DNA of 64,000 bases, taken from assembly GCF_900104355.1 (NCBI RefSeq), contig NZ_FNIY01000005.1, positions 124,001 to 188,000 of the forward strand, read 5' to 3'. This DNA is from Phyllobacterium sp. OV277. GTDB lineage: Bacteria; Pseudomonadota; Alphaproteobacteria; Rhizobiales; Rhizobiaceae. Position 1 is the stretch's first letter; the number at the start of each line of letters is the position of its first letter. The translations under genes and the position numbers were made by a program. Of this stretch, positions 37,810 through 51,074 are shown piece after piece. Below the pieces are notes generated by a model, which saw only the letters and a list, made by a program, of their open reading frames with translations, was not told the origin of the DNA and did not search any database.

Positions 37810-38521
37810 CGTGAAATCCCGAGATGATCGTCAGAGAGGTAAACTTCCGTTGTCTATACTTTAGGTTGAGCCCGTTAAGTTCTGGTTAAGCATAATTTGA
37901 AAAGCAAATGCCTGGCACACCAACTGGATTTGGAGGTGTAATTGGTATATCAATCACTGGTTGGATTTGTGTCTGCAGGTGATGCCTCATGCACGACGAC
38001 GAGCAGGACAATATGAGTGAATATGCGCCATACCTCACCAGTTTGGTGCCATATCTCGTCGGCTTTTTTGTAATGGTGCCGTTGGTCATGTGGCTCGGCC
38101 GTTCTTGCAGCCATATTCTTCCATAATTATGGAATCTTCGATTGACGGAACGTCAAAAACCACAATAAATTGGGAGTGTCATTTCCGACAGGCCATCCAG
38201 CAATTGGTGAGCATGACGCCGCGCGATCCCTTCCGCACCTTTCTCTGGCTTGCCCCCATAGCTTTGTTTGTTTTTGCCTGCACCTGGCTGATTGGATACA
38301 GTTCCTTCCACTCCCGATCGCACTACAAAGCGATGTTTTGCGCTGTGCAACACGATCCGGAATTATCCGAAATGAAGCGTAAAAATGCGGGCTGGGCCCA
38401 CAGCATTTGCCATCAGGACTGGTGACGCTGAGGGTGCACTGAACCTTCCAGATTGCATTGCGCGCAACAGCGAATAAGCTTTGAACACGACTCACCGCAA
38501 CCTGATCAAGAAGCGGAATTC
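37810..38521. other. 712-bp region without a well-supported gene
   Basis: Between the outer-membrane protein and the histone deacetylase-like gene no frame has family-level support. The first 180 bp are A/T-rich and probably hold the porin promoter. A 45-codon frame at 37989-38126 has a ribosome-binding site (listed separately). A plus-strand frame at 38129-38425 contains one hydrophobic helix (FLWLAPIALFVFACTWLIGY) but lacks a convincing start signal and resembles nothing I know. Confidence 0.5.
37989..38126 (+). CDS. Possible small single-pass membrane protein (45 aa)
   Basis: ATG at 37989 with AGGTGA 6 bp upstream, ending at TAA 38126. The product has an acidic N-terminus (MHDDEQDNMSEY) and one hydrophobic helix (LVPYLVGFFVMVPLVMWLG). 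I do not recognise it. Coding status rests only on the start signal and the helix. Confidence 0.3.
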   Translation: MHDDEQDNMSEYAPYLTSLVPYLVGFFVMVPLVMWLGRSCSHILP

Positions 38522-39580
38522 ATGAAACTGTTCTTTGCCAGCCAGCAAATGGCGCACCAGCCCAAACAATATATGATCAATGGCCGGATTACCGATCCAC
38601 TTGAAAATCCGGCACGCGCCCACACGCTGATCGATGCCCTGACGAAACTGGGATTTTCGCAGGAAGAGCCGGGCGATGCGGGGCTTGATCCCATCCACGC
38701 CGTGCACGCTGATCACTACGTCGCTTTCCTGCGAACCGCCTATGACAGGTTCATGCAGTTGCCAAACCATGGGCCCGAAGTGCTGCCGAATGTCAGTGCA
38801 TATCAGGGCGCTGGCCAAGATTTGGCCGCACGTTCACGCCCGCGACCAACAGGCGTTTTGGGTCAGGCTGGCTGGTACATCAATGGGCTCTCCTGCGCGA
38901 TGATGGAACACACCTATGCGGCGGCCTATGCATCTGCACAGACAGCAATTGCCGCAGCCGATGCCGTCTTGAATGGTGCGCGGGCGTCATTTGCGCTTTG
39001 CCGCCCACCCGGCCATCACGCCTATGCGGATCGCGCAGCGGGCTTTTGCTATTTCAACAACGCGGCAATTATCGCCCAACGCCTGCGCCAGCAACATGAC
39101 CGCGTGGCGATCATCGATTTTGATACGCATCATGGTGATGGCACACAGGCCATTTTCTATACCCGCGACGATGTGTTTTTTGGTTCCACTCACACCGATC
39201 CATCAAACTACTATCCGCATTACAGCGGCTATGCGGACGAGACAGGTGCCGGTGCGGGCCAAGGCGCCAATCTTAATCTGCCTTTGTCCGAAGGCAGCGG
39301 CGATGATGCATTTATCGAGGCCAACCGGAAACTGGCCGATGCGGTTGCCAGACATGGATCGACCGCATTGGTGATATCGGCAGGCTGGGACGCACACCAC
39401 AACGACCCTCTGTCAAAACTCAAGGTTACCACGGAGGCCTATGCGGAAATCGGGAATATATGGGGCGCGGTCGATCTGCCAACCGTGATTGTTCAGGAAG
39501 GCGGCTATTCACTGAGCGCCGTTGCCGAAGCAGCGCCCCGTTTCATGGCTGCCTATCAGGAATCACGGGACAGGTCGTAG
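38522..39580 (+). CDS. Histone deacetylase-family acetylpolyamine amidohydrolase
   Basis: A 352-aa class II HDAC-fold zinc amidohydrolase. RPPGHHAYADRAAGFCYFNN carries the charge-relay histidines (165-166). DFDTHHGDGT provides zinc ligands Asp201 and His203, and AGWDAHHNDPL the third. Length and sequence fit bacterial acetylpolyamine amidohydrolases (AphA type), which remove acetyl groups from acetylputrescine, cadaverine or spermidine. The ATG at 38522 matches the usual family start (MKLFFASQQMAHQPKQYM). It is followed after 33 bp by an MFS transporter, probably in one unit. Confidence 0.9.
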   Translation: MKLFFASQQMAHQPKQYMINGRITDPLENPARAHTLIDALTKLGFSQEEPGDAGLDPIHAVHADHYVAFLRTAYDRFMQLPNHGPEVLPNVSAYQGAGQDLAARSRPRPTGVLGQAGWYINGLSCAMMEHTYAAAYASAQTAIAAADAVLNGARASFALCRPPGHHAYADRAAGFCYFNNAAIIAQRLRQQHDRVAIIDFDTHHGDGTQAIFYTRDDVFFGSTHTDPSNYYPHYSGYADETGAGAGQGANLNLPLSEGSGDDAFIEANRKLADAVARHGSTALVISAGWDAHHNDPLSKLKVTTEAYAEIGNIWGAVDLPTVIVQEGGYSLSAVAEAAPRFMAAYQESRDRS

Positions 39581-39613: not shown

Positions 39614-40939
39614 ATGACACAAGCAACCATTGAGAGGCAACCGATCCGGGCTGCCTTGGGAGCCTTCGTCGGCACCATGATCGAATGGTACGATTTCTAT
39701 ATCTACGGAACAGCGGCGGCGCTGGTTTTCGGCGATGTGTTCTTTGCATCCACCGACCCGATCATGGGTATCCTCGCATCTCTCGGCACGTTTGCGATTG
39801 GCTTCGTTGCCCGGCCTTTCGGCGCTTTGCTCTTCGGTCATTTCGGTGACAAGGTTGGCCGCAAGAAATCCCTGATTATCACTCTGCTGTTGATGGGCGT
39901 TGCAACAGTTCTGATTGGTCTCTTGCCAAGCTTTCATTCTATTGGCCTGACGGCTGCAGTTCTTCTCGTGGTGCTGCGTCTGGTGCAAGGCGTTGCGGTG
40001 GGCGGGGAATGGGGCGGCGCGGTTCTCATTGCCGCAGAACATGCCCCGCCGCGCTGGCGGACCTTTCTGGCATCTGCCCCGCAATATGGCAGTCCCGTCG
40101 GCCTTATTCTGGCCACCCTCGCCTTCCGTACAGTTTCCGACCTGCCTCAGGAGGATTTTCTAAGCTGGGGTTGGCGCGTGCCGTTCCTCCTGAGCGGCGT
40201 TCTGATCATCTTCGCTTTCATCATTCGCGCAGGTATCAATGAAAGTCCGGAACTTCTGGAGCGGCTAAAGGAGAAATCGGTTCAAAGCGTTATCCCGGCC
40301 AAGGAAATATTCCGTACAAAGAAAATGTCCTTGCTGCTTGGCATGGGGTTGTGCCTGCTGGGTGTCGCTGGCTTCTATTTCATCACCACCTTGATGATGA
40401 CATTCACAACCACATCACTCGGCATCAATCGTTCTGATATGCTGGTGTTGATTTCCTGGGTTGGTGTGGTCGAACTGTTCGCCTTTCCCGCCGGTTCCTA
40501 CATCGCCACGCGATATGGTGAACGCTTCCTGCTGGTTGCAATGGCCGGTGCGGCTCTGCTCTTTGCCATTCCCATGATGATGCTGATCGTTTCCGGCAAT
40601 CTGACCAACATCTATATCGCTATCCTCGGAGCGACTGTCTTTCTCGCAGCCCACTACGCTGTCATGGCGCCATTCCTGACGCGCGCCTTTCCCGTACATC
40701 TGCGTTACACGGGTATTTCGCTGTGTTCTTCCCTGAGCGGTGCCATTTTCAGCGGATTGACCCCCGTCATCGGTGTCTGGCTCGTGCACAAATACGGGGT
40801 TCAATGGGCACCCCTGGCATTCCTGTTCATATTCATTGCGGGAGCGAGTTTTATATCCAGTCTCCTCTTACCTGTGGATGACAGCGCAGCAGAAGCGCGG
40901 GCAACTCCGGCAACAGACCCTGTTCAAAGCAGCGCCTGA
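39614..40939 (+). CDS. MFS transporter, metabolite:proton symporter type (ProP/ShiA-like)
   Basis: A 441-aa, 12-helix major facilitator of the MHS family. The N-terminus GAFVGTMIEWYDFYIYGTAAALVF is diagnostic. GHFGDKVGRKKSLI is the loop 2-3 motif, and RLVQGVAVGGEWGGAVLIAAEHAP is helix 4-5. Family substrates include shikimate, proline-betaine, ketoglutarate and dicarboxylates. Its neighbour suggests an acetylated amine or its breakdown product. Confidence 0.9.
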   Translation: MTQATIERQPIRAALGAFVGTMIEWYDFYIYGTAAALVFGDVFFASTDPIMGILASLGTFAIGFVARPFGALLFGHFGDKVGRKKSLIITLLLMGVATVLIGLLPSFHSIGLTAAVLLVVLRLVQGVAVGGEWGGAVLIAAEHAPPRWRTFLASAPQYGSPVGLILATLAFRTVSDLPQEDFLSWGWRVPFLLSGVLIIFAFIIRAGINESPELLERLKEKSVQSVIPAKEIFRTKKMSLLLGMGLCLLGVAGFYFITTLMMTFTTTSLGINRSDMLVLISWVGVVELFAFPAGSYIATRYGERFLLVAMAGAALLFAIPMMMLIVSGNLTNIYIAILGATVFLAAHYAVMAPFLTRAFPVHLRYTGISLCSSLSGAIFSGLTPVIGVWLVHKYGVQWAPLAFLFIFIAGASFISSLLLPVDDSAAEARATPATDPVQSSA

Positions 40940-41197: not shown

Positions 41198-43912
41198 ATG
41201 GAAAAAAGTCTAACACGCTACATCTGGTCGAACACACGGTTCCAGCAAATATGGATATTGACGGTCGTTGCGGCCTCTATGGTCCCGTATTTCCTGTCGT
41301 TCGATTTGCCGAAACAGATTGTCAACGGCCCCATACAGGGCACCGGATTTGAAGCTGAGGGTGCGACCCAGACCTTCATGCGCATCCAGTACACCCTGCC
41401 CTATTTCGGCAAAGTGATGTTTTTCGAAGGGCTGCAACTGACGCGCTTCCAGATGCTGATGGCCCTGAGCCTCGTATTTCTGTTGCTCGTTGTCATCAAC
41501 GGTCTCTTCAAGCTCTATATCAACACATATAAGGGCCGGCTTGGCGAACGCATGTTGCGCCGCATTCGCTTTGAATTGATTGATCGCGTTTTGCGGTTTC
41601 CGCCCAGCCAGTTCAAACGGGTGAAATCAGCCGAAATTGCCACGATGATCAAGGACGAGGTGGAGCCGATGGGTGGCTTCACGGGCGATGCTTTTGTCCA
41701 GCCGGCCCTTCTCGGGGGACAAGCCATTACGGCGCTTGTTTTCATTATCCTGCAGAATTTCTGGCTTGGAATGATCGCAGCAGGCATTGTCGCCGTGCAA
41801 GGCGTTGTCATTCCGCGCATGCGCAAAAAACTGCTTGAGCTTGGGCGTCAGCGCCAGTTAACGGCGCGCGAACTATCGGGCCGTGTTGGTGAAATTGTCG
41901 ACGGTATCGGCACCATTCACGGCAATGATACCTCCAATTACGAGCGCGCTGATATTGCAGCACGTCTCGGACTGATCTTCTCGATCCGCTATGATCTTTA
42001 TCAGTGGAAATTCCTGGTTAAATTCATCAACAACTTCCTCGCGCAGGTTACGCCCTTCCTGTTTTACTCCATCGGCGGCGTACTGGCATTGCAGGGCCGT
42101 CTCGATATCGGCCAGCTCGTTGCGGTTATCAATGCCTATAAGGACCTGCCCGGCCCGTTAAAGGAACTGATCGACTGGGATCAGTCGCGTCAGGACGTTC
42201 AGATCAAATATGCGCAGGTTGTCGAGCAGTTCAATGTCGATATGCTTGTTGACCCGCGTATCCAGGCAGTTGTTCACGACCCCGTGGGCAAGCTGGAACA
42301 TTCTCTGAACGCAGTGAACCTTACGCTTTCTGACGATAGTGGCGCTCGTCTGGTCGAACATGTTTCACTTGAAATCAAGCTTGGCGAGACAGTTGCCATC
42401 GTTGGTACCAGCGGCAGCGGTGGTGAGGCAATTGCCGAGGCGTTTGCCCGCCTCCTGTGGCCCGATTCCGGCCGCATCACCATTGATGGCAAGGATATTC
42501 TCGAACTGCCGGAATCCATCACCGGCCGCCGTATCGCCTATGCTGCCTCGGACGCTTATTTCTTCCATGGAACACTGCGCGACAATCTTCTTTATGGTCT
42601 CAAACACGCTCCGTTGACGAAGGTTGAGTATGAGGGCGCGAAGGCAACCAAGTACAAGTGGAACATCAATGAGGCTCGCCTTGCGGGCAATCCCGATCTT
42701 GATCTCAACAGTGATTGGGTGGATTACCAGTCCGCAGGTGTCACAGGTCCACATGATCTCTTCACCGTGGTAAGACCCGTGCTGGAAGCGGTGATGATCT
42801 CGCAGGATATTGTCGATCTGGCACTTCGCTCGCAGGTGGATACTGCAACGCATGCCGATCTTACAAGCCGCATCGTGGAATTGCGCCAGGCCTTGCGCAA
42901 AAGCCTCAAGGATGAGGACCTCGACGGGCTCGTGGTGCCGTTTGAACCGAAGGCCTACAACCCACAGGCAACCATCGGCGAGAACCTGCTTTTCGGCACG
43001 GTGAAACGCCCGATGATGACCAACCTGAAGCTTGCCGCCCATCCGTACTTCCGTTCCGTATTGCGGGACAGCGGTTTGAACATCGATCTGTACAATATGG
43101 GTCTCGAAATCGCAGCCAACGCGATTGAACTGTTCGAGGATTTGCCCCCAGATCATCCGTTCTTCCAGCAATTGACGTTCATGACTGCGGATGACATTCC
43201 GACGTATCAATTGCTGTTGCAAAAGCTGCAGGGACGCGATTTCGATGCGGCTTCACCGGATGAACGGTCAAGCATCATCCGCCTGAGTTTTGCCTATATT
43301 GAGCCAAGACACCGTTTTGGTCTTCTGACCGATGAGCTCATGGCTAAGATTGTCGATGCGCGGCTTCGTTTCCACAAAAACCTGCCGGATGATCTTAAAG
43401 CTGTGGTCGAACGCTATGATGCCAAGAAGTTCATCACATCGGCCAACCTGATGGACAATGTTCTCTTTGGCAGAATTGGATTTACCCAGGCAGACGGGCC
43501 GGAACGCATACGCGTTATCCTGCGTGATCTTTTCGATAAGCTCGGTCTTTATGACAGCGTGCTATCGATCGGTCTGGATTTCGATGTCGGCTCGGGCGGC
43601 AAACGGATCACCAATGTGCAACGACAGAAGCTGAACGTCGCCAGAGCCCTGCTCAAGCGCGCTGATTATGTGATCTTCAACCGTCCATTGCCTGCCCTTG
43701 ATCAGCGTGTGCAGGATCAAATCATGCGTAATATCCTGCAAGACCTGCATGTCGAGGGCCATGCACCTGCAATCATCTGGGTGTTGGCTAATTCTTCTCT
43801 GGCAAACTTGTTTGATCGCGTCCTCGTGTTCGACCGTGGTACTTTGGTTGAAGACGGAACACACGCGACTCTTTTGGAGAAAAACGGTATATTCAAAGAA
43901 CTAGTATCGTAA
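41198..43912 (+). CDS. ABC exporter-like protein with catalytically dead nucleotide-binding domain
   Basis: A 904-aa protein. Residues 1-330 form a type-IV exporter membrane domain with two early helices and further ones around 85-105, 170-205 and 280-310. Residues 370-904 follow an ABC ATPase plan, but each catalytic motif is changed. Walker A is GTSGSGGE (403-410, Lys and Ser/Thr replaced by Gly and Glu). The signature position is ITNVQ (804-808), Walker B ends FNRP (827-830) where Asp-Glu is expected, and the switch His is absent (VLANSS). About 340 residues are inserted between Walker A and the signature region. A (D/E)N(L/V)L(Y/F)G motif occurs three times, at 462, 595 and 753. An ATP-independent or regulatory role is inferred. 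A stop codon at 41180 excludes earlier starts. Confidence 0.85.
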   Translation: MEKSLTRYIWSNTRFQQIWILTVVAASMVPYFLSFDLPKQIVNGPIQGTGFEAEGATQTFMRIQYTLPYFGKVMFFEGLQLTRFQMLMALSLVFLLLVVINGLFKLYINTYKGRLGERMLRRIRFELIDRVLRFPPSQFKRVKSAEIATMIKDEVEPMGGFTGDAFVQPALLGGQAITALVFIILQNFWLGMIAAGIVAVQGVVIPRMRKKLLELGRQRQLTARELSGRVGEIVDGIGTIHGNDTSNYERADIAARLGLIFSIRYDLYQWKFLVKFINNFLAQVTPFLFYSIGGVLALQGRLDIGQLVAVINAYKDLPGPLKELIDWDQSRQDVQIKYAQVVEQFNVDMLVDPRIQAVVHDPVGKLEHSLNAVNLTLSDDSGARLVEHVSLEIKLGETVAIVGTSGSGGEAIAEAFARLLWPDSGRITIDGKDILELPESITGRRIAYAASDAYFFHGTLRDNLLYGLKHAPLTKVEYEGAKATKYKWNINEARLAGNPDLDLNSDWVDYQSAGVTGPHDLFTVVRPVLEAVMISQDIVDLALRSQVDTATHADLTSRIVELRQALRKSLKDEDLDGLVVPFEPKAYNPQATIGENLLFGTVKRPMMTNLKLAAHPYFRSVLRDSGLNIDLYNMGLEIAANAIELFEDLPPDHPFFQQLTFMTADDIPTYQLLLQKLQGRDFDAASPDERSSIIRLSFAYIEPRHRFGLLTDELMAKIVDARLRFHKNLPDDLKAVVERYDAKKFITSANLMDNVLFGRIGFTQADGPERIRVILRDLFDKLGLYDSVLSIGLDFDVGSGGKRITNVQRQKLNVARALLKRADYVIFNRPLPALDQRVQDQIMRNILQDLHVEGHAPAIIWVLANSSLANLFDRVLVFDRGTLVEDGTHATLLEKNGIFKELVS

Positions 43913-43959: not shown

Positions 43960-44409
43960 ATGCTTCTGAAAGACGAAGTCGAAATGTTGCGGCGGATTCC
44001 GCTGTTTTCGGGTGTGGCGCCAGCAAAGCTGAAGCTTCTGGCGTTTACGTCGGATCGTGTCAGCTACCGCGCTGAACAGGCTCTGTTCCGTCAAGGCGAT
44101 ATGGCCGATGCGGCCTATGTCATACTTTCAGGCACGGCTGATGTCAGCGTTGATACGCCCAACGGGCTGATCAAGGTGGCTGAAGTCGAACATGATTCCA
44201 TCGTGGGCGAGATCGCAATTCTCTGCGACGTGCAGCGCACAGCGACTGTTACCGCATCCACACCTCTCGAGGCCTTGCGTATCAGCAAGGAACATTTCCT
44301 CAAGCTGCTGAGCGACTATCCGGAGATGACCATCGAAATCATGCGCGTTTTGGCGAGCAGGCTAAGCCACACGACCGCGGAACTTTCGGAAGAGCGCAGC
44401 AAACACTGA
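43960..44409 (+). CDS. Stand-alone cyclic-nucleotide-binding domain protein
   Basis: A 149-aa CAP-type cyclic-nucleotide-binding domain (LRRIPLFSGVAPAKLKLLAF opening). The phosphate-binding cassette VGEIAILCDVQRTATVTA retains the Glu and Arg that contact the ribose and phosphate. The typical C-terminal helices follow, and there is no DNA-binding domain. It should therefore bind cAMP or cGMP and act through a protein partner. It lies 47 bp downstream of the pseudo-ABC protein on the same strand, which is the obvious candidate partner. Confidence 0.9.
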   Translation: MLLKDEVEMLRRIPLFSGVAPAKLKLLAFTSDRVSYRAEQALFRQGDMADAAYVILSGTADVSVDTPNGLIKVAEVEHDSIVGEIAILCDVQRTATVTASTPLEALRISKEHFLKLLSDYPEMTIEIMRVLASRLSHTTAELSEERSKH

Positions 44410-44427: not shown

Positions 44428-46197
44428 TTAAACTTTCTCAATCCTGCCGGTTTCAGGATCGATCATGAAATTGCGTGATGGCAGCCCTGAGAGGTAGCGT
44501 TCCATCATTCGCAACATCAGAGCAAACTGCGCCTGCGCGCCACCAGTTGTCATTGCATTTGAACCAGCGAAAATATCGATTAACACCCGATAGATTTTCA
44601 ACCGTGCCGCCGATATGCGATCCAGCGCCATTTCACTTCCCATTCGCAGGCGATACCAATCGCCCAGAAGCTCCTGCACCGTCATCTTGTCGAACTGCTC
44701 AAGTCCGGCATCAGTATCCGCAAGGAGTGCCTGTATTTTGACGATGGTTTCCGGCCGCCCGCGTTCGGCGTGGACAAGAATGATTGTCGCGTCGATATCA
44801 ACAGGCTGCTCGATGAGGCTGAGCGTAAGCAGATCGCCGAGGGTAAGCATTGGCAGTATGCGGGCAATGTCCTTCGGCCATTCGCGCCGCAAATAGCGAT
44901 GCACGACCAACTGATCGACATGTTCTGAGATGAATGCTCCGTAATCCGCCGCATCCAGCATGGTCCCCACCATCTTGCCAGTCAGGCTGATTTCGGTGCG
45001 ATACTGGTCATTCAAGGTTTGATCAATAATCTGCTCATCGATACCGATTGTTTCAACTTGCAGACCTCGCTCTTCAAAACTCACAACCTTGAAGGCTGGC
45101 GGGAAAGCCACGAGCGAAGGCACCGCGATATTGATCAACCAGGATGAGCCCTTCTCTACCCTTGCCGTGTCATTGACATGAAGATGACCGCTAAAGTGTA
45201 TCCGTATACCAGCATCCATCATGGTCGCGGCGACTTCGGACGAGGGCGTCCGTTTGACGGCGCTGGTATTGCCAATCAAATGCCCTTCATCACCATGCGT
45301 ACCATCCAGAGCATCGAGCATGGGATAATGCGAGAAGGTAAGCAGCATCTTACCTTTATTTTTTGCCCGCGTCGCAACATCCTGCATCCAGTCGATGACA
45401 AAACGCTTGTGGTCCAGCATGCCATTCCAGCCAGCATTGGTGCTGTCAACGAATGCACCGGAATCGCCGCGCTCGAAATCACCATCCCGGGGCACGAAGA
45501 CATTGGCATCGATCATCAGCAGCCAGAGACCAGGGACCGGTTCAACCAGATATGACGCGTCCATAAGCTGATAATCATTTGTACCATCGGCGGATCGAAC
45601 GGGATAAACTCGCTTGCCGGGAGCATCATCTTGACCGAAGGGTGTCTCCCAATGGATGTCGCTGGATCGCCGGAAAAAACCAAGATCAGGCAGCATCTGC
45701 AATCCTTGCGGATATCCCTCACAATACATCTTGTCTGTCACGACCATGCCATCGGCATCCTCGTCGATGAATGCACTGTCGCTCGCCACGATTGTGTAAG
45801 TGCCGTCGGGGTTCAGCAGCCGCTTGGCATGATGCCTGCCCTTTGGGCCAAAAATGTCGTGGTTTCCCGGCACCGCTGTAAATACAAGCCCATGTTTTTC
45901 GGAGTATCCATCAAGCAACCGCCCAAGCGCACCAAGCGTGGAGACTTGTCCGTCATCGGAATAATCACCAAGTAAGATGACATGCTGGATACCGCGCTGC
46001 ACTACCTTGTCCAACGCGGTCCGCAGGGCAAAATAGCTTTCGTTAAAAACACGGGTCGAGCGCACTGTATCCGTCAGGCGCCGGGCAGTCATGCGCAGGC
46101 CACTAACCTCCACGCCGGCAAAGTCGTAATCGCCGTAAAGATCATGAAAATGGGCGTCTGCGATAACTGCTAAGGACGGAAATTGGGCCGAGGACAT
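44428..46197 (-). CDS. Calcineurin-like metallophosphoesterase, large form
   Basis: A 589-aa protein with the full binuclear metal motif set in the first 370 residues: ADAHFHD, LLGDYSDDG, PGNHDIFG, FSHYPM and FSGHLHVND. The C-terminal 220 residues are helical with no family I know. Class III cAMP phosphodiesterases (CpdA) share this fold but are about half the length. A cyclic-nucleotide or sugar-phosphate substrate is possible. No signal peptide is evident. It converges with the cyclic-nucleotide-binding gene (18-bp gap) and diverges from the MBL-fold gene across 200 bp. Confidence 0.85.
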   Translation of the reverse strand: MSSAQFPSLAVIADAHFHDLYGDYDFAGVEVSGLRMTARRLTDTVRSTRVFNESYFALRTALDKVVQRGIQHVILLGDYSDDGQVSTLGALGRLLDGYSEKHGLVFTAVPGNHDIFGPKGRHHAKRLLNPDGTYTIVASDSAFIDEDADGMVVTDKMYCEGYPQGLQMLPDLGFFRRSSDIHWETPFGQDDAPGKRVYPVRSADGTNDYQLMDASYLVEPVPGLWLLMIDANVFVPRDGDFERGDSGAFVDSTNAGWNGMLDHKRFVIDWMQDVATRAKNKGKMLLTFSHYPMLDALDGTHGDEGHLIGNTSAVKRTPSSEVAATMMDAGIRIHFSGHLHVNDTARVEKGSSWLINIAVPSLVAFPPAFKVVSFEERGLQVETIGIDEQIIDQTLNDQYRTEISLTGKMVGTMLDAADYGAFISEHVDQLVVHRYLRREWPKDIARILPMLTLGDLLTLSLIEQPVDIDATIILVHAERGRPETIVKIQALLADTDAGLEQFDKMTVQELLGDWYRLRMGSEMALDRISAARLKIYRVLIDIFAGSNAMTTGGAQAQFALMLRMMERYLSGLPSRNFMIDPETGRIEKV

Positions 46198-46397: not shown

Positions 46398-47228
46398 ATG
46401 AGCGAAGATGTATTTCGGGTGAAATTCTGGGGAACGCGTGGCAGCGTACCAGTATCCGGCCCCGAATTTGAACGTTATGGCGGAAACACGTCATGTATAG
46501 AAGTACGCTGCGGCGAACACAGATTGATCTTTGACGGAGGCTCCGGCCTGCGTCAGGCAGGTGATGCGCTGTCCGGTGAAGGTATCGACAAGATCGATAT
46601 TATCTTCACCCATTGCCATTATGACCACATTATCGGCCTGCCCTATTTCGCCCCACTCTACAATCCGATGATGAATGTGCGCCTCTGGTCCGGCCATCTT
46701 GCTGGTATCATGACCACGCGCGAAATGGTCAAGCAGTTCATGCGACCACCATGGTTTCCCGTTGAGCCAGATATCTGCAAGGCAAGTCTTGGCTTCCGTG
46801 ATTTTAAATCAGGCGATGTCCTGACACCGCGCGAAGGCATGACGATCCGCACAGATAGTCTGAACCACCCCGGCGGTTGTATTGGATATCGCATTGAATG
46901 GGCAGGCAAAGTGCTTGCGCTCATTTACGATACGGAACACGAAGCCGGTGTTCTTGATCCTGTGGTGCTGCGACTGATCGAGGGCGCTGATCTCGTTGTT
47001 TATGACTGCACCTATACGGAAGATGAAATGCCACGGCGCTTCGGCTACGGGCATTCCACCTGGCAGCAGGGCGTGAAGCTGGCGGCAGCGGGTAAAATTG
47101 GCAAGCTCGCACTGTTCCACCATGCGCCATCGCGTACGGATGACGAGATTGACCGCTTTGAGGCCCTGGCAAAAAAACACTTCGCCGGGACTTTTGCGGC
47201 TCGCGACAGTCAGGTCATCGATCTCTAG
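46398..47228 (+). CDS. Metallo-beta-lactamase-fold hydrolase (PhnP/phosphodiesterase-like)
   Basis: A 276-aa MBL-fold hydrolase. FWGTRGSVPVSGPEFERYGGNTSCIEV is an N-terminus shared with PhnP-like and cyclic-phosphate phosphodiesterases. HCHYDH (in FTHCHYDHIIGLP) is the zinc motif. LNHPGGCIGYRIEW, YDTEHE and FHHAP supply the remaining ligands. A phosphodiester substrate is plausible, and with a cyclase and a cAMP-binding protein nearby cAMP is worth testing. Its 3' end overlaps the convergent deacetylase gene by 14 bp. Confidence 0.87.
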   Translation: MSEDVFRVKFWGTRGSVPVSGPEFERYGGNTSCIEVRCGEHRLIFDGGSGLRQAGDALSGEGIDKIDIIFTHCHYDHIIGLPYFAPLYNPMMNVRLWSGHLAGIMTTREMVKQFMRPPWFPVEPDICKASLGFRDFKSGDVLTPREGMTIRTDSLNHPGGCIGYRIEWAGKVLALIYDTEHEAGVLDPVVLRLIEGADLVVYDCTYTEDEMPRRFGYGHSTWQQGVKLAAAGKIGKLALFHHAPSRTDDEIDRFEALAKKHFAGTFAARDSQVIDL

Positions 47229-47988
47229 ACTTCTGGCTCTTCATCAGTTCACTTATGGAGAGCCAGCGTCCGCCCGGCGTCTTCGCCACAACCTGAAAAA
47301 GCTTCTTCAGGAAAATCCATGCCGACTCATCATGAACAAGATGGTGCGTCAAAATCCCGATTGGCTCTGCACTTCCGTCAAATCGTTGCCGTAGCTCCGT
47401 CACGATTGCGGCCACGAGTTCCGCATGGTCTCGACACCCCTTTGATCCGTGCCAGTCCATCAGATCAACATGCGTATTGATTGAAGGCAGCGAATTTGCC
47501 GCCGGATTTGCTGCGCCAAACACCGAAAGCGCCTCGAATCCGCAATCACCGAGATAAGGCAGGAGCGCCGGGTCAATCCGGTTCCATGGCGGCACAAGCA
47601 CTGGCACAAATCGTGCTGAATGCAGCTTCGCAAGACGCGTGCAACCATCGCGCAATTGTTCAAGAATCAACGCGCGCGGTCGATCAGGACCCAGTTCCTG
47701 TTTCTTCTTGTCCTTTGCCGCGTGATTTTCATGCGACCAGCCGTGCGCTACCACAGATATCCAGCGTTCGGTTTCAAGGCGTTTGACCAATGGTTCCCCG
47801 GTATGAACAGGAATCACGGCAAGGGCCGTGGGCACTTTGAAATCATTAGCGAGTTGGAGAAGCCGATCCAGCGCTGCCGTTGGCTCAACGGCGTCATCAT
47901 CACGCAACCAGAACCTGGCGCTGCGGTTGGCATGAATCCAGCGTGCAAGCTCGGCTTGCAGGGGTTGCCAGATTGGATCTTCCGTCAT
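47215..47988 (-). CDS. Polysaccharide deacetylase family protein (NodB-like fold)
   Basis: A 257-aa protein. The metal-binding set of carbohydrate esterase 4-like deacetylases is visible: FWLRDDDAV (catalytic and metal Asp), HGWSHENHA (His-X3-His), VPPWNRI and THHLVHD near the end. No signal peptide, so it may act on a cytoplasmic sugar intermediate. It overlaps the glycosyltransferase gene by ATGA, so the two act together, probably in making or trimming an N-acetylated glycan. Confidence 0.85.
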   Translation of the reverse strand: MTEDPIWQPLQAELARWIHANRSARFWLRDDDAVEPTAALDRLLQLANDFKVPTALAVIPVHTGEPLVKRLETERWISVVAHGWSHENHAAKDKKKQELGPDRPRALILEQLRDGCTRLAKLHSARFVPVLVPPWNRIDPALLPYLGDCGFEALSVFGAANPAANSLPSINTHVDLMDWHGSKGCRDHAELVAAIVTELRQRFDGSAEPIGILTHHLVHDESAWIFLKKLFQVVAKTPGGRWLSISELMKSQKSRDR

Positions 47989-49076
47989 CGGCTTCCTCCC
48001 ATTGAATTTCTCAGCAGCGCATCCAGCTGTCTTGCAGCGATCTCGAGCGATCTTTCTTCCAATACAAAACGCCGGGCTGCAGAGCCCATTGAGACCAGCA
48101 AGTCATTATCATCGAGCAGGCTGGCGATAGCATCGGCGTAGGCCTGTACATTTCCCTCCGGTGTCAGAAAACCGGTGACACCGTTCTGTACTACTTCGGG
48201 AACACCCGCCGTTGCCTGCGCAATAACAGGCAAACCCGCCGCCTGCGCCTCCAGATAAGCGATACCATAAGCCTCTCCACAACCGGGCCAGACATAAATA
48301 CCTCCCTCACTCAACAACGCGGAAATCTCATCCGCGTTCCTTTGTCCAAGCCAGCTTATCCGGTTGCCAAATGCCGAAAACAGCGCCCGTACTTCATTCT
48401 CCACCGGGCCATCACCGACAATCGTCAAGGTCCACGGCCTTTTATCGAGCAGCGCAAGGGCCGCCGCGAGCATCTCATAACTATGAAGCTTGTCGCCCGG
48501 CCGCATCATCGCCACGGTGACAAGGCGATGGGGATTGTGCGCAATGGGGTCTGGATGAAACGATGCGATATCGATGAATGGCTTCAACTGCTCCAGCCGG
48601 GCGCTCGGGATGTTCGTTGCAAGTCCAGTCATATCGCGCTGCGTAAAACATATATTGACCGCTGCATTGCGAACTGCCTCAGCCACCAATATCTGGGTTT
48701 CCGCCCATCCGGTAGCATTGCGGCGCGGTGAATAGGATGCCTCCGCCGTCACATAGGGAATATCCAATGCGGCGGCTAAAACTGGGCCAATCAAATCCGG
48801 TGCTTTGTAATAAGGATGATAACAGAACCAGAGATCAGGTCTCCTGCCTGCCTGCCAAAGACTGGAAAGACGCTCAACCTCCTGCCGTGCGGACGCCGCG
48901 ACACGCTCCCGGTCTTCAAAATTCGGCAGTTTCGTAAAGCTGCGCAGTTCCGATACCACATCGACGGAATGGCCTGCCATGCGCAGCGCCGCAATCAGCA
49001 GGCGAGCCATCTGCCGGTCACCCGATGGAACGGGATGATCGGGTGATTTCAAGGGGGCGTAAAAGGCAACCTGCAT
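47985..49076 (-). CDS. Glycosyltransferase family 4 protein
   Basis: A 363-aa GT-B fold transferase. The C-terminal half has the nucleotide-sugar-binding region: GDKLHSYEMLAAALALLDKR, LTIVGDGPVENEVRALF and the EX7E motif in CGEAYGIAYLEAQAAGLPVIA. The N-terminal acceptor domain starts with VAFYAPLKSPDHPVPSGDRQMARLL. I take the ATG at 49076 rather than the TTG at 49082. Likely adds a sugar to a lipid or polysaccharide; it is translationally coupled to the deacetylase. Confidence 0.9.
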   Translation of the reverse strand: MQVAFYAPLKSPDHPVPSGDRQMARLLIAALRMAGHSVDVVSELRSFTKLPNFEDRERVAASARQEVERLSSLWQAGRRPDLWFCYHPYYKAPDLIGPVLAAALDIPYVTAEASYSPRRNATGWAETQILVAEAVRNAAVNICFTQRDMTGLATNIPSARLEQLKPFIDIASFHPDPIAHNPHRLVTVAMMRPGDKLHSYEMLAAALALLDKRPWTLTIVGDGPVENEVRALFSAFGNRISWLGQRNADEISALLSEGGIYVWPGCGEAYGIAYLEAQAAGLPVIAQATAGVPEVVQNGVTGFLTPEGNVQAYADAIASLLDDNDLLVSMGSAARRFVLEERSLEIAARQLDALLRNSMGGSR

Positions 49077-49295
49077 GCGCAAGCAATCCAGTATTTCACA
49101 ATGGTTTCAATCATTTCGGCAAAAACTCGCCGAGTCCTGCAAATCTATAGCCGGTTCTTGCCTCCCGACACTAACAATCTTTTGATCGGCTATCACAGAA
49201 CCGTTTGTCAAAAAGCCATCATTGCGCTTGATCCCGCACCTATGGCTCGCCAAATCAGCTGGGCTCGAATAAGATTCAGATGAAGATGGGAATGG

Positions 49296-49340: not shown

Positions 49341-51074
49341 ATGACAATAGCAGCGACTGCACCCATGCTTTCCGAGCGGTTCTTGCGCCGGGCACGTCTG
49401 GCATCAGGCCTGATCATGCTCACATTCCTGACTTTGCATCTCGCCAATCATTCACTCAATCTCATTTCACTTTCCGCTGCTGAAGAAGGTCGTCGCTGGT
49501 TTCTTTTCATCTGGCGCAATCCCGTTGGAACCCTGATTTTCTACGGCGCAGCGATCACACACGTCATTCTCGTGATGCGATCGCTCTATATGCGTCGCAC
49601 ATTGCATATGCCGCTCGGCGAGGCACTGCAGATCATACTCGGATTGCTGATCCCCGTTCTGATCATCGAACATGTGGTTGGCACCCGCATCCGCTATGAA
49701 ATATCCAATTACTATGACAGCTATGAAACCGTCATTCGCGGCTTCTGGATTACCTCCCCTTTCAATGGCATCAAACAGACCGTCGCCCTGATCGTCATCT
49801 GGTGTCATGGTTGTATCGGCATTCATTTCTGGTTGCGCTACCGGCAATGGTATCAACGTGCGGCGCCCGTGTTGCTGACGGTTGCCATACTCCTGCCGGT
49901 GCTTGCACTGCTTGGTTTTGCCAATACCGGCCGGACAATTGCCAATATGTCCCCAGCTTCCGGTTACGGTGAATACCCGTCATCGGGTTATCAGGGCCAC
50001 AAGAACTACAATTCCACGCGCTATTCTTCGCCAGCCGAGCGCACCGAAGTCAAAGAGGATGAATTCCTCGTCAAACTTGGCCTGTACGGTGCCTTTGCAG
50101 GTGGGCTCGCACTGGTTCTTGTTCTGCGTGTGTACAGGCGCTGGCGCGAGCGGGCCAGCCAGATCGAGATCCGTTACGCCGATGGCCAAAGTGTCCGCGT
50201 ACCGCTTGGCTTCAGTGTGCTGGAAGCAAGCCGCCTCGGCGGCGTACCGCATTACGCGGTATGCGGCGGCAAAGGGCGATGCTCGACGTGCCGCATTCAG
50301 GTTCTGGAAGGTGCTGAAACGCTTCCTCCAGCAGAACCGATCGAGCAGGCCACGCTAACCCGTATTGGCGCCGACCATGGCGTGCGGCTGGCGTGCCAGC
50401 TACATCCTACCAGCAGTATCAGCGTTGTTCCACTGCTTGTGCCGAGCCTCGAAAGCATCGTTCCGGCAGGAAGCCAGCAGACAAGTCCGGGACGAGAACG
50501 TGAAATCGCGATCCTGTTTTGCGATATACGCAGCTTCACCATGCTAACCGAAGCACGGCTGCCTTATGATATCGTTTTTCTGCTCAACCGGTATTTTGCT
50601 GTTGTCGGTCAGGCCGTCGAGCGCTCCGGCGGGCGGCTTGACAAGTTCATTGGTGACGGTGCCATGGCTCTGTTCGGTTTGAACGGTTCAGCAGCGGACG
50701 CCTGTAGCAATGCGCTGAAGGCCGCGACAATCATCGTCAAGGAAATCGAGCGGCTCAATGACGAACTGGCAGGTGAACTCAGCATTCCGCTGCGCGTTGC
50801 CATCGGCATCCATACCGGTCCTGCTATTGTCGGGGCGATGGGTTATGGCGCAGTCAAAAGCCTGACGGCCATAGGCGATACGGTCAACGTTGCGAGCCGG
50901 CTGGAGACTGTTGCCAAGGAATTTAATGTAACACTGGTGGTCTCGGAACCTGCGATTATCCTTGCCGGTTCCGATACCACGGGCCTTGAAGTTCGGGAGG
51001 TAGCAATTCGCGGGCGCGCCCTGCCTCTGCGCGTTTATATCGTCCCACAGGAAAGCAGTGTTCGCTTCGTGTGA
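49341..51074 (+). CDS. Membrane 2Fe-2S ferredoxin-adenylate cyclase (class III)
   Basis: A 577-aa protein with three parts. Residues 1-270 hold about six membrane helices resembling a cytochrome-b-type anchor, with histidines at 33, 37, 74, 111, 156 and 162. Residues about 275-365 are a plant-type [2Fe-2S] ferredoxin domain with ligands Cys308, Cys314, Cys317 and Cys352. Residues about 385-577 are a class III cyclase with metal Asp395 and Asp439, adenine-selecting Lys506 and Asp513, and transition-state Asn516 and Arg520, all present. It should make cAMP in response to a redox or respiratory signal. It overlaps the FkbM gene by GTGA. Confidence 0.93.
   Translation: MTIAATAPMLSERFLRRARLASGLIMLTFLTLHLANHSLNLISLSAAEEGRRWFLFIWRNPVGTLIFYGAAITHVILVMRSLYMRRTLHMPLGEALQIILGLLIPVLIIEHVVGTRIRYEISNYYDSYETVIRGFWITSPFNGIKQTVALIVIWCHGCIGIHFWLRYRQWYQRAAPVLLTVAILLPVLALLGFANTGRTIANMSPASGYGEYPSSGYQGHKNYNSTRYSSPAERTEVKEDEFLVKLGLYGAFAGGLALVLVLRVYRRWRERASQIEIRYADGQSVRVPLGFSVLEASRLGGVPHYAVCGGKGRCSTCRIQVLEGAETLPPAEPIEQATLTRIGADHGVRLACQLHPTSSISVVPLLVPSLESIVPAGSQQTSPGREREIAILFCDIRSFTMLTEARLPYDIVFLLNRYFAVVGQAVERSGGRLDKFIGDGAMALFGLNGSAADACSNALKAATIIVKEIERLNDELAGELSIPLRVAIGIHTGPAIVGAMGYGAVKSLTAIGDTVNVASRLETVAKEFNVTLVVSEPAIILAGSDTTGLEVREVAIRGRALPLRVYIVPQESSVRFV

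Follow-up and report, generated by a model that had tools for sequence, protein, structure and literature searches.

Within the window, the 64,000-nucleotide stretch of the Phyllobacterium sp. OV277 genome analysed here, one intact open reading frame encodes a 904-residue protein that combines an ABC exporter fold with a nucleotide-binding domain (NBD) stripped of its catalytic motifs. Its features are as follows.

41198..43912, + strand: pseudo-ABC exporter, 904 aa (open reading frame)
41198..42232, + strand: exporter-type membrane domain, residues 1-345 (Pfam ABC_membrane; model against MsbA)
42404..42427, + strand: former Walker A, GTSGSGGE, residues 403-410 (sequence, alignment, census of relatives)
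42581..42598, + strand: repeat motif 1, DNLLYG, residues 462-467 (sequence, conservation)
42623..43417, + strand: extra segment, approximately residues 476-740, tandem repeats of the Q-loop/helical-subdomain unit (HHalign)
42980..42997, + strand: repeat motif 2, ENLLFG, residues 595-600 (sequence, HHalign, conservation)
43454..43471, + strand: repeat motif 3, DNVLFG, residues 753-758 (sequence, HHalign, conservation)
43607..43621, + strand: former signature, ITNVQ, residues 804-808, within RITNVQRQK (sequence, alignment)
43667..43684, + strand: former Walker B, YVIFNR, residues 824-829 (sequence, alignment, census of relatives)
43778..43792, + strand: former switch region, WVLAN, residues 861-865, within WVLANSS (sequence, alignment)

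Fold, lost motifs and internal repeats of the pseudo-exporter

An earlier note, made from the DNA alone, had described this reading frame as a 904-residue protein with an exporter membrane domain, and both the reading frame and the Pfam ABC_membrane match (60.8 bits, cut-off 28) bear this out. The structure prediction and superposition that the note called for also returned an exporter fold. The predicted model aligned with Acinetobacter baumannii MsbA over 346 residues from residue 2 onward at 5.3 Å, and the modelled NBD, C-terminal to the membrane domain (residues 363-904, 542 residues), is complete, covering the ComA NBD over its full 240 residues at 2.3 Å. SUR structures were among the fold matches as well. 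The arrangement of the domains in the model is uncertain, since whole-chain Foldseek TM-scores (by query) reached at most 0.36 among the 50 matches listed and pLDDT fell below 50 at residues 136-141, 155-173 and 318-349.

The sequence lacks each of the motifs by which an active ABC ATPase is recognized, namely Walker A GxxGxGK[ST], the LSGGQ signature, Walker B Asp-Glu and the switch His. Gly-Glu occupies the Walker A Lys-Ser/Thr positions, ITNVQ stands at the signature, the Walker B position reads YVIFNRPLPALD, with Asn-Arg in place of Asp-Glu, and the switch region has no His, all exactly as first reported. Two landmarks survive, the ALD of the D-loop and the ARALL helix, and the coverage of the ComA NBD agrees with the accompanying claim that the fold remains recognizable. 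The genome encodes 11 other ABC_membrane proteins; when these were scanned with loose motif patterns, Walker A, the signature and Walker B were matched in all 11 and the switch His in 10. Because all 11 keep the first three motifs, the loss in the window protein goes beyond chance. From a sequence without the Lys, the Mg ligands, the catalytic Glu and the His, we infer that the window protein does not hydrolyse ATP.

The pseudo-NBD also carries extra length, put at about 340 residues in the earlier note and nearer 300 by comparison of its 542 residues with the 240 of ComA. The extra segment repeats the NBD's own 'NLLFG...AR' unit: in an HHalign self-comparison, residues 553-590 matched 712-747 (probability 97.4) and residues 577-638 matched 735-795 (probability 97.7). 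The (D/E)N(L/V)L(Y/F)G motif was indeed found at residues 462, 595 and 753, and its Asn is near-invariant, with a conservation in the 60 distant members described below of 1.00 at positions 596 and 754 and 0.98 at 463; the internal repeats also have a conserved Arg. The 'Q-loop-like' label given to these repeats needs correcting, since the motif corresponds to the canonical TIxENLxxG stretch that immediately follows the Q-loop and not the Q-loop itself. Searches with the extra segment (residues 474-762) gave a best Pfam E-value of 0.049, a best PDB sequence E-value of 0.09 and weak structural matches only.

Distribution, motif census and selection

The gene was found in 18 of 19 Phyllobacterium genomes, the exception (G015) being 88% complete, in 97 of 199 genomes of its own taxonomic family and in 131 of 385 genomes sampled from the class (E ≤ 1e-90), mostly as one near-full-length match each. 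In the phylum sample it occurred in 27 of 398 genomes, every carrier belonging to the same class or closer; all these tallies count the window's own genome. Carriers include Phyllobacterium, Rhizobium, Sinorhizobium, Mesorhizobium, Agrobacterium and Brucella/Ochrobactrum, to which plasmid records add Azospirillum, Ruegeria and Sulfitobacter; Sinorhizobium meliloti replicons of approximately 1.6-1.7 Mb also carry it. No description of the family was found in the open-access literature searched.

Motif states were counted in an alignment of the window protein and 140 relatives. The 80 near relatives are the best-kept 80 of 564 loci encoding a relative, and the 60 far ones are places in 58 genomes, hand-picked from the genus and class searches to span families. 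None of the 80 near members has the Walker A Lys, the Walker B Glu or the switch His; all 80 have Asn for the Walker B Asp and 79 have an acid at the Walker A Ser/Thr position. In far members, Walker A keeps Lys in 35/60, with an acid at the Ser/Thr position in 47/60 and Ser/Thr in 2/60, Walker B has Asp in 11/60, Asn in 33/60 and Glu in 34/60, and the switch His is present in 18/60. Twenty-four far members keep both Lys and Glu with the Walker B Asp changed, and the A-loop position holds Tyr or Trp in 10 of the 60.

Across the family, Ser/Thr of Walker A has become Glu/Asp in 126 of 140 members and both Mg ligands are changed in most, while the window's clade additionally lacks Lys, Glu and His. 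Lys and Ser/Thr occur together in one of the 140 (far member L160), Walker B Asp-Glu in two (far members L139 and L195), and all four catalytic residues together in none of the 140 members examined, in agreement with the proposal of an ABC exporter derivative whose motif loss is conserved. Nucleotide binding by the more distant members is nevertheless possible because of the Lys, Walker B Glu and switch His that part of them retain, and the earlier interpretation is to that extent narrowed: a maintained, exporter-derived protein with conserved motif loss stands, whereas distant members partly keep the residues in question.

A midpoint-rooted tree, built by a quick method from the membrane domain alone for 76 of the 141 rows (the window, 15 hand-picked near members and the 60 far ones), placed the window-type state (small residue, acid, Asn, mostly Arg) in one clade of 17 rows with an SH-aLRT of 99. 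Forms with Lys-acid-Asn/Ser-Glu are scattered across much of the remaining tree. The tree requires a minimum of 15 changes at the Lys and 9 at the acid. The simplest history would be an early loss of both Mg ligands, after which the window's clade lost the other catalytic residues as well; given the midpoint rooting, we infer the direction of these changes.

Pairwise Nei-Gojobori estimates for 17 same-genus sequences, limited to pairs with dS of 0.1-1.5, which left 40 of 136 pairs in the whole-gene comparison and between 26 and 57 in the comparisons by part, gave a median whole-gene dN/dS of 0.045, indicative of purifying selection. By part, the medians were 0.041 for the membrane domain, 0.067 for the first NBD part, 0.048 for the insert and 0.053 for the last part, with overlapping quartiles. 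These ratios indicate that the catalytically dead NBD and its insert are under strong constraint. The gene is thus maintained, as had been supposed from its length; close relatives with intact Walker motifs and relaxed selection, which were looked for as a refutation, were not found. Mean conservation in distant members is highest in the membrane domain (0.64, against 0.53-0.56 elsewhere).

The predicted cyclic-nucleotide-binding partner and the wider neighbourhood

The genes downstream of the pseudo-exporter in the window are listed below.

43960..44409, + strand: predicted cyclic-nucleotide-binding protein, 149 aa, partner gene (Pfam cNMP_binding, E 2.7e-20)
44206..44247, + strand: phosphate-binding-cassette motif GEIAILCDVQRTAT, partner residues 83-96 (aligned domains)
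44428..46197, - strand: metallophosphoesterase, 589 aa (relative in 12/80 near loci)
46398..47228, + strand: MBL-fold hydrolase (relative in 38/80 near loci)
47215..47988, - strand: polysaccharide-deacetylase-like protein, recurrent neighbour (Polysacc_deac_1 E 0.0015, below cut-off)
47985..49082, - strand: family 4 glycosyltransferase (GT4), recurrent neighbour (annotation of a plasmid with a 99%-identical pseudo-exporter)
49341..51074, + strand: class III nucleotide cyclase with a 2Fe-2S domain (Pfam Guanylate_cyc and Fer2)

The best PDB sequence match of the partner is a cyclic-nucleotide-binding protein, and the partner has the Gly-Glu...Arg of a phosphate-binding cassette. In 138 aligned cNMP domains these residues are conserved in 138 (Gly), 133 (Glu) and 138 (Arg); the full cassette pattern fits 128, and 6 of the 10 domains that depart from it are among the 9 fused domains. 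A relative of the partner was found in 80/80 near and 48/60 far loci, always downstream and on the same strand (128 of 140 loci), with a gap of -10 to 625 bases. At nine further loci, all far and from seven genomes, the pseudo-exporter is longer than 980 aa and has a C-terminal segment, directly behind the pseudo-NBD, that aligns with the cNMP domain; Pfam confirmed the domain in both fused members scanned (L183 and L186). On the tree, at least two changes between the fused and the separate state are needed. The partner is missing from the other three loci, in one of which (L180) a class III cyclase reading frame is next downstream.

The most divergent fused members (L186, L187, L189, L192 and L193) have an atypical cyclic-nucleotide motif and an almost unrecognizable Walker A, two copies being present in genomes G192 and G369. 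These members may constitute a subfamily of their own.

The conserved partner gene or fused domain provides an independent lead for the 'ligand-gated' idea raised in the earlier note. The adjacency could also reflect co-regulation rather than contact. On sequence grounds, the family may be described as ABC-exporter-derived pseudo-ATPases with a cNMP-domain partner.

The MBL-fold hydrolase, whose cluster occurs in 1/60 far loci, scored 37 bits against a cyclic-nucleotide phosphodiesterase model with a cut-off of 400, and since this is far under the cut-off a phosphodiesterase role is only a lead. The class III cyclase, which presumably resembles the S. meliloti CyaC type, has a relative more than 50% identical within the fetched stretch in 12/80 near loci; its N-terminal part is hydrophobic by reading. 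Directly upstream of the pseudo-exporter lie a histone-deacetylase-family protein (38453-39580) and then an MFS metabolite/H+ symporter (39614-40939). The former has no match in the 80 near loci and the latter has matches of 30-31% only; both genes are carried by the plasmid with the 99%-identical pseudo-exporter.

Glycan-related genes recur around the family. The label of the deacetylase-like protein matches the annotation in the same plasmid, and its cluster occurs in 33/80 near and 27/60 far loci; a relative of the GT4 enzyme is present in 37/80 near loci, a few of the matches being weak. Many far loci have a divergent block that runs GT28-like, GT4, GT4, histidine phosphatase, GT28-like and deacetylase-like, and then a protein of approximately 170 aa and an oligopeptide-importer ATPase. 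GT4 and GT28 clusters lie within the stretch in 39/60 far and 67/80 near loci, and a histidine phosphatase accompanies them in 36/60 far and 0/80 near loci, some stretches being shortened by contig ends. The conserved protein of approximately 170 aa (L172:2360-2872, - strand, and relatives) occurs in the glycan cluster of 25/60 far loci and gave no significant Pfam or NCBIfam match. Five far loci, picked because the importer ATPase was already visible at the edge, were extended outward; all five reach that ATPase and two permeases, and four a binding protein. Comparable linkage is seen in annotated records of R. etli p42e, Sulfitobacter indolifex and Azospirillum lipoferum, and at an S. meliloti locus (L207) glycosyltransferase and importer genes lie upstream of the pseudo-exporter.

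In the window genome, a GT28/GT4/GT28 and oligopeptide-importer block lies on another contig (L215, G000:C4:128000-147500), where it adjoins genes resembling Ku and DNA ligase by reading. Linkage to the block is therefore not needed for the pseudo-exporter to be retained, and since 21/60 far stretches also lack the GT4 and GT28 pair, the glycan link is not universal.

Possible modes of action

The pseudo-exporter shares its membrane domain and NBD fold with MsbA/ABCB-type exporters (MsbA, ComA, TmrAB, TAP). Unlike these, it lacks the Walker A Lys-Ser/Thr, LSGGQ, the Walker B Asp-Glu and the switch His, and its NBD is approximately 300 residues longer. CFTR and SUR are ABC exporter folds turned channel or regulator, a repurposing like that proposed here; both are eukaryotic and retain one or more functional nucleotide sites. 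Heterodimers with a degenerate site (TAP, TmrAB, MsRv1273c/72c) likewise have changed catalytic residues in an exporter NBD, but one of their sites remains active; we know of no cyclic-nucleotide partner or repeat insert in them. A parallel for the partner is the Nostoc protein HetC, an ABC exporter with a peptidase, which is reported to need an N-terminal cyclic-nucleotide-binding domain for function and to have an essential ATPase residue; the domain bound ppGpp, whereas protection by cAMP was not significant (PMC10986499). HetC likewise ties an ABC exporter to a cNMP-type domain. It differs in that its domain is N-terminal, not a separate protein or C-terminal, and in having a peptidase and an essential ATPase where the pseudo-exporter has lost its ATPase motifs. 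As HetC demonstrates, an exporter can depend on a cNMP-type domain, and such a domain can bind a ligand other than cAMP or cGMP.

The reading we prefer, with slightly less than even confidence, is a non-hydrolysing, cyclic-nucleotide-controlled membrane protein that serves cell-surface glycan and uses its NBD as a regulatory platform. The partner, with cyclic nucleotide bound, would dock on the pseudo-NBD, a contact suggested by the fused domain directly behind it in nine loci, and would move the exporter domain between states, so that the cyclic-nucleotide signal substitutes for ATP binding. The membrane domain might then pass a lipid-linked or secreted glycan passively, or stay shut, the glycan presumably being the product of the associated enzymes. 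Conformational control by cyclic nucleotide over the passage or assembly of surface glycan would be the likeliest mechanism. A supply of the signal is plausible, as one report credits S. meliloti, in different places, with 28 and with 25 adenylate cyclases, the first figure being given beside CyaD1D2K (PMC5498481).

A protein that transports nothing and forms, with the cNMP protein, a membrane receptor or assembly platform regulating neighbouring glycosyltransferases is rather less than probable. It would account for the loss of every catalytic residue in the window's clade, the near-constant partner, the glycosyltransferase linkage and a large helical insert without known relatives in Pfam and PDB sequence searches. 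Yet the membrane domain is the part best conserved in distant members and has the lowest median dN/dS, its range overlapping those of other parts, so a working membrane path fits at least as well as a scaffold. That the family still binds or hydrolyses ATP through an unusual metal arrangement of a GKE/GKD Walker A and an Asn-Glu Walker B, with only the window's clade dead, is improbable: the Lys, Glu and His kept by some far members, including the 24 with Lys and Glu and a changed Asp, and the spread of such states over much of the tree speak for it, but the rarity of Walker A Ser/Thr and Walker B Asp in far members, the complete absence of the four-residue set and the few A-loop Tyr or Trp residues speak against it. 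It is also inapplicable to the window protein, where Gly replaces the Lys and Arg the Glu.

Heterodimeric exporters in which one of the sites is degenerate are well documented (PMC12038006), and a canonical half encoded elsewhere might provide the ATPase here. This is very unlikely in view of the 140 loci, which hold just 23 other reading frames of more than 450 aa matching the family's residue 80-480 profile. The 23 include a single group of nine 555-aa Rhizobium reading frames, and ABC importer ATPases match the profile too; a conserved linked half-exporter is therefore absent from these loci, and an unlinked one is possible. To our knowledge, known degenerate heterodimers have one site degraded, never all motifs of a half. 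A decaying pseudogene is scarcely credible. The gene is split over two frames in two same-genus genomes, G013 (L019/L026) and G019 (L018/L027), and the class match in G248 and a further match in G722 have an internal stop each, but the other class-sample matches (several partial, some at contig ends) have none, and these stop-free matches and a dN/dS of approximately 0.045 refute decay for the family as a whole.

Returning to control by cyclic nucleotide, we offer a wider version as a doubtful but possible generalization: across this alphaproteobacterial exporter family, cyclic nucleotide would replace ATP as the switch, and a cNMP protein, separate or fused, would gate surface glycan through a dead, repeat-expanded NBD. 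This version includes an apparent shift of the negative Mg ligand out of Walker B, where Asp became Asn/Ser, and into Walker A, where Ser/Thr became Glu/Asp.

ABC exporters serve as the textbook example of ATP-driven pumps. Many of the annotated records examined name the pseudo-exporter 'ABC transporter ATP-binding protein', a label that masks both the ATPase loss and the cNMP partner. Carriers make up approximately a third of the sampled class genomes, legume symbionts among them. If the proposal is true, the ABC exporter fold would here be run or regulated without ATP, and bacterial cAMP/cGMP signalling would gain a membrane target besides transcription factors.
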